Source: Cenarchaeum sp. SB0675_bin_21
GTDB lineage: Archaea; Thermoproteota; Nitrososphaeria; Nitrososphaerales; Nitrosopumilaceae
Length of the DNA: 48,201 nucleotides
Assembly: GCA_009843815.1 (NCBI GenBank)
Contig: VYCS01000032.1
Span: forward strand, 1-48,201
Direction: 5' to 3'
Positions 43,851 to 47,829 of the stretch are shown here, piece by piece. The notes beneath the pieces were generated by a model. That model saw only the letters and a program-made list of their open reading frames with translations. It did no database searches and had not been told where the DNA came from. The stretch's first letter is position 1, and each line of letters begins with the position of its first letter. Position numbers and translations under genes: made by a program.

Positions 43851-44864
43851 TTATATTTTCGGATCCATGCCATGTGAAATACGTAACGCATCTACTAGAC
43901 CATCTGCATAACCTATAGACAGTATGGCCACCTCGTCTTGGCCACTCTCCAAAGCCCTCTGAGCGTCTTGTATGTATGAGATGGCATTTTGTACTATCAA
44001 TTTTTCATTATTAGAGCAGTCTGGAAGATCTTGAATGGATTTGTGTATCATTGGAGTATATTTTTCAATCATCTGTTGTGGTATGCTCTTTATGGTTTGA
44101 TTTTCTGGGGGGCCATCCATACATCTGGTTAATACCCGTATAGCGTCACATTCAGTAAAGTGGAGCCTTCCAGTCAGTATTATGGAGTGTGGGGGTTCGC
44201 CAAAGTCGTATCCCTCAAGGCTTGAGAGACTTCCAGATACTACAAGTTGTCTCTTTGTCCCTATACGACATGCCACTATACAGTGTCTGTCAGGTGTAAA
44301 GACGCCTCGCCGATAACTCTTTTCAGCATCAGATAGCCTCTGTAGTGCCACATCTGCTTTTAGAAAAAAGTCTGCATCCTGATTATACTCCAATAATAAC
44401 AGTGTGTGATTCCCCAATACGGCATTTCTATACGAGACCATGTATGGTGTCTCCAACAGTGTATCTTCGCTCATTATGGTAGCCATGCGGCCCATCATGT
44501 AATGATGTAGGCCGCACTCACCCACTAAGGTTGTGATGGCAGAGGGGCCATGCACCACATTTACGGGTATGCCCCTTTGTGCTGCACGTACTCGAAGTTC
44601 AGTGTGGGTAGTGGCCACCAAAGGGTCTCCATATGATGCTAAAACCACATCTTTGTATTCTGATTCTTCTAGTATGCGGCGACCATCCTCCACCAGCCAC
44701 CTAGGGGCCATCTGTAGTGTGGGGCATATGCGCCTTATCTGGGAGGTATTGATGTCTGGGCTGGTGAATACCTCCAGATATACTATGTCTGCTTTTTGTA
44801 TTATATCTTCAATGTTATATGGTATAGAGTCATCCGATACGCCCAATCCCACTATATGCAACAT
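43851..44864 (-). CDS. dph5: Diphthine synthase fused to a DUF357-like C-terminal domain
   Basis: Residues 1-255 are Dph5: MLHIVGLGVSDDSI at the N-terminus, LASYGDPLVATTHTEL and VHGPSAITTLVGECGL, the SAM-binding segments of diphthamide methyltransferase, which modifies the histidine of elongation factor 2. The last 75 residues (MIEKYTPMIHKSIQD, then AISYIQDAQRALESGQDEVA, then SIGYADGLVDALRI) match the small helical DUF357 domain, which is usually a separate protein. The start ATG overlaps the lysK stop as TAATG. 337 residues instead of about 265 reflects the fusion. Confidence 0.9.
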   Translation of the reverse strand: MLHIVGLGVSDDSIPYNIEDIIQKADIVYLEVFTSPDINTSQIRRICPTLQMAPRWLVEDGRRILEESEYKDVVLASYGDPLVATTHTELRVRAAQRGIPVNVVHGPSAITTLVGECGLHHYMMGRMATIMSEDTLLETPYMVSYRNAVLGNHTLLLLEYNQDADFFLKADVALQRLSDAEKSYRRGVFTPDRHCIVACRIGTKRQLVVSGSLSSLEGYDFGEPPHSIILTGRLHFTECDAIRVLTRCMDGPPENQTIKSIPQQMIEKYTPMIHKSIQDLPDCSNNEKLIVQNAISYIQDAQRALESGQDEVAILSIGYADGLVDALRISHGMDPKI

Positions 44865-45994
44865 TATACAGTGGCCCGTCTTTTATCATGAAGTCTCTTC
44901 AAGTGAGCCAGTGATTTTTTGAGTACATCGATTCCTCGCAGATACTCAGATACTGACACACTCTCATTTATTGTGTGGGAAGCATGTGGATCGCCAGGTC
45001 CATATGTGATTACTGGAATTCCCCATCGACTTCCCATAACATTCATGTCTCCGGTACCTGTCTTTCTTATCAATGTGGGTCTGTTCCCCTCACACTCAAT
45101 TATTCCCAGTGTAAACGCTCGTACCAGAGGCGAGTTGTGAGGAGCCTCAAAGGGTTCGGTCTCATCCAATATAGAATAGAATACCTCCACGTCCCTCTCC
45201 TCGCTAATGCTTCTAACAAGGTCGGATATCTTCTCCTCAATCATTTTACAGTTGGTGGTGACAGGTATGCGTATATCCATAGTGGCGGTGCACTCTTGCG
45301 GAGTAACATTGTGACTGGAGCCGCCGCGAATCTCGGTTATAGCAGCAGTCATCTGCATACTACGACTATCGGCATGTCTAGCCTCCAAGGCACTCTTTAA
45401 TTTGGATGTAAAGTATGCAGTCTCTTCTATAGCATTCTTTGATAGCCAAGGCGCGCTGGCATGGGAGCTGTCTTTTACATCTACACGCAAGCTGATAGCC
45501 AGTCTACCTTTATAGGCTATTGTTACCTGATCTAATCTACTAGGTTCGCCAAATACAGCATAATCTACATTCATTCTCTTTTTGACCAGATTTTTTATCC
45601 CTGTAGCGTTACCCTCCTCATCTACGGCGCCTACAAAGATCACAGTTCCATTACCATCACCGACTGATGCTGCGGCAAACAACATTGCCATCAAAGGAGC
45701 CTTGGCATCTGAGGCTCCACGGCCATACAGTGTGTCACCATCTCGGCGAACCCGTATCTTGCCGGGCACCGTATCCATATGACCACACAGTATTGTTGTA
45801 GGTGAACCAGAGCCCTTTGTGGCGATGACATTACCCACACCATCTATTCGTATATCATTAAATCCCAGCTCATCGCACTTGTCTGCCAAAAATTCTGTCA
45901 TGGGTCGCTCGCTTAGTGATGGCGTATAGAGTCGGAGAGCTTTTTCGAGCATCTTGACTGCATATTTTGAACTTACATTGGCCCCATACATCAT
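44864..45994 (-). CDS. lysK: [LysW]-lysine/ornithine hydrolase
   Basis: Releases lysine (or ornithine) from LysW in the carrier-protein pathway; M20 family zinc peptidase. Metal ligands appear as CGHMDTVPG, GRGASDAKAPLMA, VGAVDEEGNATG and, further on, VFGEPSR, and the terminal H in PHASHTINESV. The N-terminal LEKALRLYTPSLSERPMTEF matches the subfamily. ATG 45994 overlaps the lysX stop as ATGA. 376 residues is typical. Its stop overlaps the dph5 start by TAATG. Confidence 0.92.
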   Translation of the reverse strand: MMYGANVSSKYAVKMLEKALRLYTPSLSERPMTEFLADKCDELGFNDIRIDGVGNVIATKGSGSPTTILCGHMDTVPGKIRVRRDGDTLYGRGASDAKAPLMAMLFAAASVGDGNGTVIFVGAVDEEGNATGIKNLVKKRMNVDYAVFGEPSRLDQVTIAYKGRLAISLRVDVKDSSHASAPWLSKNAIEETAYFTSKLKSALEARHADSRSMQMTAAITEIRGGSSHNVTPQECTATMDIRIPVTTNCKMIEEKISDLVRSISEERDVEVFYSILDETEPFEAPHNSPLVRAFTLGIIECEGNRPTLIRKTGTGDMNVMGSRWGIPVITYGPGDPHASHTINESVSVSEYLRGIDVLKKSLAHLKRLHDKRRATV

Positions 45995-46839
45995 CGTCTG
46001 GCCCTCTGTATTGCGTACTTTATCATGGCGCCGGCTATGTCAATACCTGTAACCCGTACAGTGTTCTTGAATTCAGTTGTGTTGTTTACTTCATGTACTA
46101 ACAACCCATCATCACTCTCCATCAAATCCACACCCACGATTTTACCACTTACGGCATTTGATGCTTTTATGCACATCTCTTCCATCTCAGGTGTTACAGG
46201 ACACGGATCTGCGGTTCCACCCAAGGCCGTATTGGTCTTCCACATGTTATCATGGGAGGTACGATATATGGCTGCCACTATTTCATCTCCCACCATTATA
46301 GCACGAATATCTCTAGGAGGTCGCTTTACGAACTCTTCTATGTAGTGTATCTGGTATATGGGATACATACTCTCCCTGCTCTCCAGTATACTGCCTGCTA
46401 TCTCTGGATCATTTATCTTTGATATTAGTCGGCCCCAGCTTCCCACGGTTGGCTTTATGACTGCAGGATATCCAATCTCATCCAGTGCTTTTAAGGCAGC
46501 CTCTTGTGAAAATGAGACGGTTGCCTTGGGTGTGGGTACGCCGGCATTTTTGAGTAGCATGTGAGAGTATAGTTTATTGCCAGCAAGTATGCCAGTCATA
46601 TGACAGTTAATTACATCCACGCCCATGCCTTCTAGTGCCGCTGTGGAGTGAACATTTCTGTAATAGCTGACACATCTTTGAAGTACCACACCAAACTTGT
46701 CTGTCTTGCCCTCCAAATCCAGATGCAGGCCCTTACAGTTTACCATACTGATAGTCACACCCATATCTTTTGCTGACGCCAGCAAGGCCTTCTCTTCCCA
46801 CCTGATAGTATCGTAAAGTATGGCTATGTCAGGATTCAC
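45991..46839 (-). CDS. lysX: LysW ligase, LysX/ArgX family (RimK-like ATP-grasp)
   Basis: Forms an amide bond between the amino group of alpha-aminoadipate or glutamate and the C-terminal Glu of LysW. The sequence opens NPDIAILYDTIRWEEKALLA, typical of LysX, and shows the ATP-grasp pattern YPAVIKPTVGSWGRLISKIN, HYIEEFVKRPPRDIRAIMVG and VGVDLMESDDGLLVHEVNN, the metal-binding end. The GTG at 46837-46839 overlaps the lysW stop as GTGA and is preferred to an upstream TTG. 282 residues. The operon is lysW-lysX-lysK-dph5. Confidence 0.93.
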   Translation of the reverse strand: MNPDIAILYDTIRWEEKALLASAKDMGVTISMVNCKGLHLDLEGKTDKFGVVLQRCVSYYRNVHSTAALEGMGVDVINCHMTGILAGNKLYSHMLLKNAGVPTPKATVSFSQEAALKALDEIGYPAVIKPTVGSWGRLISKINDPEIAGSILESRESMYPIYQIHYIEEFVKRPPRDIRAIMVGDEIVAAIYRTSHDNMWKTNTALGGTADPCPVTPEMEEMCIKASNAVSGKIVGVDLMESDDGLLVHEVNNTTEFKNTVRVTGIDIAGAMIKYAIQRARR

Positions 46840-47003
46840 TGCCCCCAATCCTCGCCTACCGTCTGGGCGGGTTTGAGACTAAACGGATCCGAACTACCAA
46901 TCAACTCGAAACTTGCTCCACAATCAGCGCACGTCACAATCTCTCCTTCTAAGGCATCTGTGGGAGTGGATATATCCGCGTCACATTCACTACATTTGGT
47001 CAT
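46836..47003 (-). CDS. lysW: LysW amino-carrier protein with C-terminal Gln
   Basis: The small acidic carrier that protects the amino group of aminoadipate/glutamate intermediates. A 55-residue frame starts MTKCSECDADISTPTDALEG, with two zinc-binding pairs CSEC (4-7) and CADC (25-28), and ends VGEDWGQ. The EDWG ending identifies LysW; the last residue in the family is Glu, whose gamma-carboxyl takes the substrate, but here the codon is CAG (Gln), one base from GAG. The ATG at 47001-47003 and a box A around 47028-47037 support the start. The stop overlaps lysX as GTGA. Confidence 0.9.
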   Translation of the reverse strand: MTKCSECDADISTPTDALEGEIVTCADCGASFELIGSSDPFSLKPAQTVGEDWGQ

Positions 47004-47156: not shown

Positions 47157-47263
47157 TTACTTTGAGCATCTCTCTTGTATAACGTCATAGACAAATTTGG
47201 GAGTCCGGGTATACGTAAAACTACCATCAGCCGTATTTTCCAGATAACCTACAGAGTTAATGT
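47157..47263 (-). pseudogene. Possible protein C-terminal fragment without start
   Basis: A minus-strand frame reads SVGYLENTADGSFTYTRTPK followed by FVYDVIQERCSK and a stop, with a stop just upstream and no ATG, GTG or TTG. It looks protein-like and could be the end of a lost gene or a tiny protein from an unusual start. Confidence 0.25.
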
Positions 47264-47272
47264 TTTTATATA
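47263..47272 (+). promoter_or_regulatory. Box A for the secreted Met/His-rich gene
   Basis: TTTTTATATA centred 26 bases upstream of the ATG at 47293. Confidence 0.6.
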
Positions 47273-47292
47273 GTGATCAATCCTTAAGGGCA

Positions 47293-47829
47293 ATGAAAAT
47301 GATACTAATGGGAGTAGCTACAGCTGCAATGTTAGGCGCAATCTTCCTATCTTGGTCTATGTCAGAGCAAGCAGCAATCGCGGCCTCAGATGATGGAGAG
47401 CATATGGATAGTATGGAGCATATGGAGCCAACAAGTCATGAGTACCGCTTTACCCAGACAACAGACTCAGCCCTCTCACCCGGACTAGGACATGAGACAC
47501 ACCAGATAGTCAGAGTACTAGAGCCAAGTGATGGCATCATATACGCTGGTACTGTGTCATATGTCGCCAGTGAGCCTATAGATATTGTTATACTTCATGA
47601 GATGAACAATGAGGATTCACGTGGTCAAGCAATTTGGAGAATAGATGATGATAGAGTGTACGGTTGGACATTTATGGATATTGACTCGAAGGTAGGATAC
47701 TTTGAGTACTCTGGAGCAGGACTGTTATTCCACACAGGTGGTGATGAATTTACTGCCACATATACTGCAGTGGGTTCCGCTCAAGAAAGTCAGGTTCTAA
47801 ACATAACCTCATCTATAGACGCACCATAG
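47293..47829 (+). CDS. Secreted protein with Met/His-rich segment
   Basis: MKMILMGVATAAMLGAIFLS is a Sec signal peptide with cleavage near AAIAAS. The mature N-terminus reads DDGEHMDSMEHMEPTSHEY (about residue 34-52), a run of Met and His with spacing suited to copper(I) or copper(II) binding. The remainder (residues 55-178) is beta-rich and ends with a Thr/Ser-rich strand; no Cys at all. Ammonia-oxidising archaea are rich in secreted copper proteins, so an extracytoplasmic copper-handling role is a reasonable guess, not shown. Leaderless ATG 47293. Confidence 0.6.
   Translation: MKMILMGVATAAMLGAIFLSWSMSEQAAIAASDDGEHMDSMEHMEPTSHEYRFTQTTDSALSPGLGHETHQIVRVLEPSDGIIYAGTVSYVASEPIDIVILHEMNNEDSRGQAIWRIDDDRVYGWTFMDIDSKVGYFEYSGAGLLFHTGGDEFTATYTAVGSAQESQVLNITSSIDAP

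Follow-up and report, generated by a model that had tools for sequence, protein, structure and literature searches.

In the LysW carrier protein, the C-terminal Glu is regarded as the defining functional residue, and in the characterised species charging takes place via the gamma-carboxyl group of this Glu. In the window, by which we mean the whole stretch of 48,201 nucleotides from Cenarchaeum sp. SB0675_bin_21 analysed here, the lysW gene ends with a codon for Gln, and the question arises whether such a carrier can still work and, if so, in which way its cargo would be attached.

The gene in question (copy A, the lysine-side carrier; 46836..47003, minus strand) is an open reading frame for 55 amino acids with the tail VGEDWGQ. 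On the minus strand its 3' end reads GAG GAT TGG GGG CAG TGA, i.e. EDWGQ and stop (46838-46836), and the CAG codon at 46841-46839 (46839..46841, minus strand) is found in place of one for the acceptor Glu both by direct reading and by comparison with relatives. The initial annotation had described this exchange, with the remaining protein and the overlap with lysX preserved, and both parts of the description stand: the product scores 84.3 bits against the NCBIfam archaeal LysW/ArgW model NF041070 (cut-off 75), the match spans model positions 3-57 of 57 up to the last residue, and the GTGA overlap is present (GTG at 46839-46837, then A). The zinc-binding CxxC...CxxC pattern occurs as CSEC and CADC, and its cysteines (C4, C7, C25 and C28) are invariant in an 18-row alignment. 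The LysW relatives in the PDB (3vpb_E, 3wwl_A and 5k2m_E) all end in EDWGE, whereas the window protein ends in EDWGQ; judged by homology it is a LysW, yet one without the defining acceptor Glu. In size, four-Cys zinc motif, EDWG tail and an operon shared with lysX/argX, lysY, lysZ, lysJ and lysK, LysW of ammonia-oxidizing archaea (AOA) resembles the LysW/ArgW carriers of Thermus, Sulfolobus, Thermococcus and Natrinema, but it differs in the last residue, as the characterised and structurally solved members all end in EDWGE (PMC10433800).

Two further genes are linked to lysW in the window. The ATP-grasp ligase LysX (45991..46848, minus strand) reaches 327.7 bits against the archaeal LysX model TIGR02144 (cut-off 275.6) with its GSWGR motif intact, and it starts either with GTG at 46839 (4-nt overlap with lysW) or with TTG at 46848 (13-nt overlap). 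In loci of the Nitrosocaldus family and of Nitrosocosmicus no GTG occurs at this place, so that lysX may start at TTG 46848. The third gene (44864..45994, minus strand) codes for an M20-family hydrolase predicted to release the amino acid from LysW. Its best match is the [LysW]-lysine hydrolase, at 280.4 bits and under the cut-off of 363 of that model, while it exceeds the cut-off of 163.1 of the broader dapE-lys-deAc subfamily with 268.8 bits; on these two matches we name it lysK.

The initial annotation had further considered the Gln codon as a possible one-base defect of this genome, a view that could not be upheld. In a protein search that covered the genome itself and 60 relatives, LysW turned up in 60 of the 61 genomes, usually in two copies each; among the members of the same family (Nitrosopumilaceae) in this set copy A, beside lysX, always ended in Gln, and copy B, usually beside argX, mostly ended in Glu. 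A DNA pattern for Gln-ending LysW was then positive in 227 of 330 genomes of the class, namely in 171 of 185 genomes of the Nitrosopumilus family, 51 of 51 of the Nitrosocosmicus/Nitrosopolaris family and five of six of the Nitrosocaldus family, with no match in the 88 genomes of the other families. These three families are ammonia-oxidizing lineages, a label taken from the genera that they hold. Among the 14 pattern-negative Nitrosopumilaceae, five genomes (G152, G186, G187, G200 and G208) carry Glu in both copies, and in the others the pattern did not pick up copy A. Since Gln is a conserved, lineage-wide state of AOA that is found in 171 of the 185 family genomes, an error at base 46841 is excluded for practical purposes, and conservation across more than 200 genomes also rules out a pseudogene.

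The exact DNA pattern [V/I/M]GEDWGQ-stop, whose last codon also admits TGG, returned at least 119 stretches from named genome contigs, and among the matches listed all but three are labelled as Nitrosopumilaceae, Nitrosotalea, Nitrososphaeraceae, Nitrosocaldus, Thaumarchaeota and the like, or simply as archaea. The three bacterial matches read through as ...GEDWGQW in unrelated frames with no stop and were rejected as LysW.

One could still imagine that the overlapping lysX frame preserves the Gln codon irrespective of any role in the carrier. The two genes overlap in most loci and, if lysX begins at TTG, its codons take in the Gln codon, so that a C-to-G change would alter LysX codon 3. Arg is, however, tolerated at that LysX position in Glu-type relatives, and Gln also occurs in copies that do not overlap in this way, such as the unlinked Cenarchaeum copy and the argX-linked copies of Nitrososphaeraceae. 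The unlinked Gln-ending copies rule out the overlap as the cause, and together with sequencing error we consider this kind of explanation extremely improbable.

How the two residues are distributed over the two copies varies between lineages. Copy A ends in Gln and copy B in Glu in most Nitrosopumilaceae as well as in g49 and, within the Nitrosocaldus family, in g23; both end in Gln in g45, several other Nitrososphaeraceae and the window's genome; copy A ends in Glu and copy B in Gln in g44 and g48; and Glu is found in both copies in G327, in family f3, in the five Nitrosopumilaceae mentioned above and in those deeper families in which two copies were read. The Nitrososphaeraceae g44 and g48 are thus swapped, with Glu in the lysX-linked and Gln in the argX-linked LysW (L311-L315, L339-L342). 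Across 250 distinct LysW proteins, a set that comes partly from Glu/Gln pattern searches, the last residue is Glu or Gln only (AOA: 156 Gln, 65 Glu; outside AOA: 29 Glu, no Gln), and the loci from protein and profile searches, where the query does not fix the last residue, again show nothing but these two. This restriction suggests that the LysW side chain matters.

Could the Gln-ending protein simply stay uncharged while a Glu-ending LysW encoded elsewhere does the work? Most Nitrosopumilaceae do have a second, Glu-ending LysW, and the initial annotation had named such a copy as what would explain the Gln away. In the Cenarchaeum genome the second LysW (copy B, G000:C45:420-593) has a terminal Gln as well, and the genome is therefore without any Glu-ending LysW. 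The same holds for its congener G002, which has Gln-ending LysW only, while congener G001 has Glu in copy B. Genomes of g45, which we take to be Nitrososphaera as named Nitrososphaera records stand beside it in the ligase trees, possess two LysW proteins that both end in Gln. In Nitrosocosmicus (g29), a profile search of 14 genomes, three of them single-contig assemblies, yielded a single LysW as the sole match in each, and it ends in Gln in 14/14. With Gln-only complete genomes contradicting it, an uncharged Gln-ending carrier appears very unlikely to us.

In the Nitrosocosmicus clusters that were read, argX directly follows argG, the single lysW lies upstream of lysX, and argX, lysX and the shared lysY, lysZ, lysJ and lysK are all there. 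Nitrosocosmicus has lost the argX-linked LysW, and one Gln-ending LysW must serve LysX and ArgX (L327, L328, L039, L174). Nitrosocosmicus arcticus is maintained as an enrichment on mineral medium (PMC6657660), so that the synthesis of lysine and that of arginine very probably both depend on the Gln-ending carrier, which likewise speaks against an uncharged protein.

As regards the organization in Cenarchaeum, copy B (L032/L002) is not linked to argX, and in the arginine cluster argG-argX-lysY-lysZ-lysJ the gene argG is followed by argX with no lysW in between (L338, G000:C38:13062-13898). The sole homocitrate-synthase-like gene seen near this cluster (G000:C38, L350:3171-4679) scores as a distant paralogue, and a true homocitrate synthase was not located near the cluster.

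The ligases next to the two types of carrier provide a further line of evidence. For 163 LysX proteins, the tree requires at least seven changes in the terminus of the adjoining LysW, four of them forced by starred branches, and for 82 ArgX proteins it requires at least three. One starred group, made up of four Nitrosopumilus genomes whose copy A has GAG, sits inside a set of CAG genomes, clearly a return from Gln to Glu. Judged from these trees, AOA LysW can carry Glu or Gln interchangeably. The GSWGR motif, which reportedly recognises the tail of LysW (PMC10433800), is kept in all 163 LysX and all 82 ArgX proteins of either type, and over six contrasts between Glu groups and their Gln relatives no ligase column tracked the terminal residue; covariation of ligase residues with Gln was rejected, as nothing was found beyond phylogeny. 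Two LysX columns are conserved in AOA (H96 and E171), both also in the Glu-type family f3, and ArgX has no AOA-only conserved column. In the other enzymes such columns are LysK C40, LysZ N120 and LysJ F112, and LysY has five AOA-conserved columns, three of which are common, at least partly, to family f3. These few changes in LysK, LysZ, LysY and LysJ at the base of AOA were examined for hints of a new function, but none could be so read.

Because of the Gln-only genomes, the repeated switching, the lack of any ligase change and the invariant GSWGR, the Gln-ending LysW is very probably a working carrier. In that case AOA cells must either convert the terminal Gln beforehand or hold the cargo by a different attachment, and on this point we agree with the initial annotation, which had named deamidation and use of the alpha-carboxyl group as the two ways out.

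The second of these is the main alternative: LysX and ArgX of AOA would use the alpha-carboxyl group of the last residue, a peptide bond would hold the cargo and LysK would be a true carboxypeptidase. LysX belongs to the same ATP-grasp family as RimK, CofF and MptN, which make alpha linkages, and it also matches the models of these ligases. A free interchange of Glu and Gln as observed would follow, and a deamidase would be unnecessary. Yet AOA LysX retains the LysX-type GSWGR and scores as LysX, unlike RimK, CofF and MptN, which extend their substrates via the alpha-carboxyl group. Other last residues would also be expected whereas only Glu and Gln occur, no AOA-specific residue marks an altered ligase chemistry, and the characterised species link via the gamma-carboxyl group. 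The last residue of Natrinema ArgW is essential, as the E54A variant is an arginine auxotroph (PMC10433800), but this is a gamma-linking system. From our point of view, alpha linkage is conceivable but doubtful.

It can also be imagined that the Gln amide is a direct substrate of LysX, with ATP activating the carbonyl oxygen and the substrate amine displacing ammonia, or with hydrolysis preceding ligation. No extra gene would be required, and for Dop acting on Pup-Gln an attack of the side-chain amide oxygen on ATP has been suggested, in analogy to argininosuccinate synthesis (PMC8599861). A mark on LysX would be expected, however, and none follows Gln; moreover, as Gln also occurs with ArgX, this ligase would have to have gained the activity independently. 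We consider such a reaction unlikely, and less probable than alpha linkage as the route that AOA have taken.

The reading that we prefer is that the Gln-ending LysW of AOA works as a pro-carrier, with deamidation of the Gln to Glu ahead of charging at the gamma-carboxyl group and with LysK as the likeliest deamidase; for this reading as a whole we estimate a probability of about one half. New LysW would be made with the C-terminal Gln, an amidase would strip the side-chain ammonia from the tail, and LysX and ArgX would then couple alpha-aminoadipate and glutamate, respectively, to the gamma-carboxyl group, as in other species. Given a working carrier, the exchange of Glu and Gln, the limitation to these two residues and the unchanged enzymes, the simplest solution is that all carriers end up with Glu. 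One set of LysZ, LysY, LysJ and LysK is common to Glu and Gln carriers in the same operon, which is likewise simplest if both finish as Glu. In Nitrosopumilaceae the lysX-linked copy is nearly fixed for Gln, which argues against Gln as a mere precursor of Glu, as commoner returns to Glu might then be expected.

LysK cleaves the amide that joins the LysW gamma-carboxyl group to lysine or ornithine. By analogy with Dop, which acts on Pup both as deamidase and in its removal, LysK, whose normal reaction is on an amide of the same gamma-carboxyl group, would be the most economical candidate for the deamidase. Against the reading stand the operon, where no amidase gene besides lysK was seen, and LysK itself, which shows just one AOA-specific conserved residue. 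Dop and CheD were rejected as LysW deamidases: Dop/PafA-type genes (PF03136) occurred in none of the 13 genomes tested, and CheD is patchy, being missing from the Cenarchaeum genome and from both Nitrosocosmicus genomes tested.

A comparable logic has been described for Pup, which is encoded with Gln in some actinobacteria and is deamidated from Pup-Gln to Pup-Glu by Dop before ligation, the same enzyme also cleaving the Pup isopeptide (PMC8599861). Like Pup, which forms an isopeptide via the gamma-carboxyl group of its C-terminal Glu, LysW is a small protein that is encoded with Gln or Glu depending on the species, and the alternation between relatives is found in both ligase trees. The two systems differ in that no sequence relation between LysW and Pup is known, that the 13 genomes lack a Dop/PafA homologue and that for LysW we infer the deamidation.

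A literature search, with most subscription papers outside its coverage, found no description of a Gln-ending LysW. The metabolic model of Nitrosopumilus maritimus, in the portions of the article at hand, uses the standard LysW route and makes no mention of the terminal residue (PMC6038301). As AOA are widespread archaea that commonly encode Gln, either the pathway as described lacks a LysW deamidation activity or the linkage differs. We regard it as quite likely that AOA share an undescribed LysW chemistry, be it a pro-carrier deamidated by LysK, and hence a second, unrelated instance of the Pup/Dop logic, or charging at the alpha-carboxyl group. If true, either would provide AOA with one more point at which the synthesis of lysine and arginine can be controlled. 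The case parallels that of Pup-Gln and Dop, and the question can be addressed directly in cultured Nitrososphaera, Nitrosocosmicus or Nitrosopumilus.

Some genomes deviate from the usual two copies. The single-contig 3.2-Mb genome G024 (g2, L048) has only an argX-linked, Glu-ending LysW and no copy A by profile search, and three LysW genes per genome occur in G019 (L083, G019:C37) and in G326, two of them Gln-ending in the latter. In the window, a divergent gene upstream of lysW (47260-47829, plus strand) codes for a predicted exported protein in which a His/Met/acid-rich stretch follows the N-terminal hydrophobic segment.
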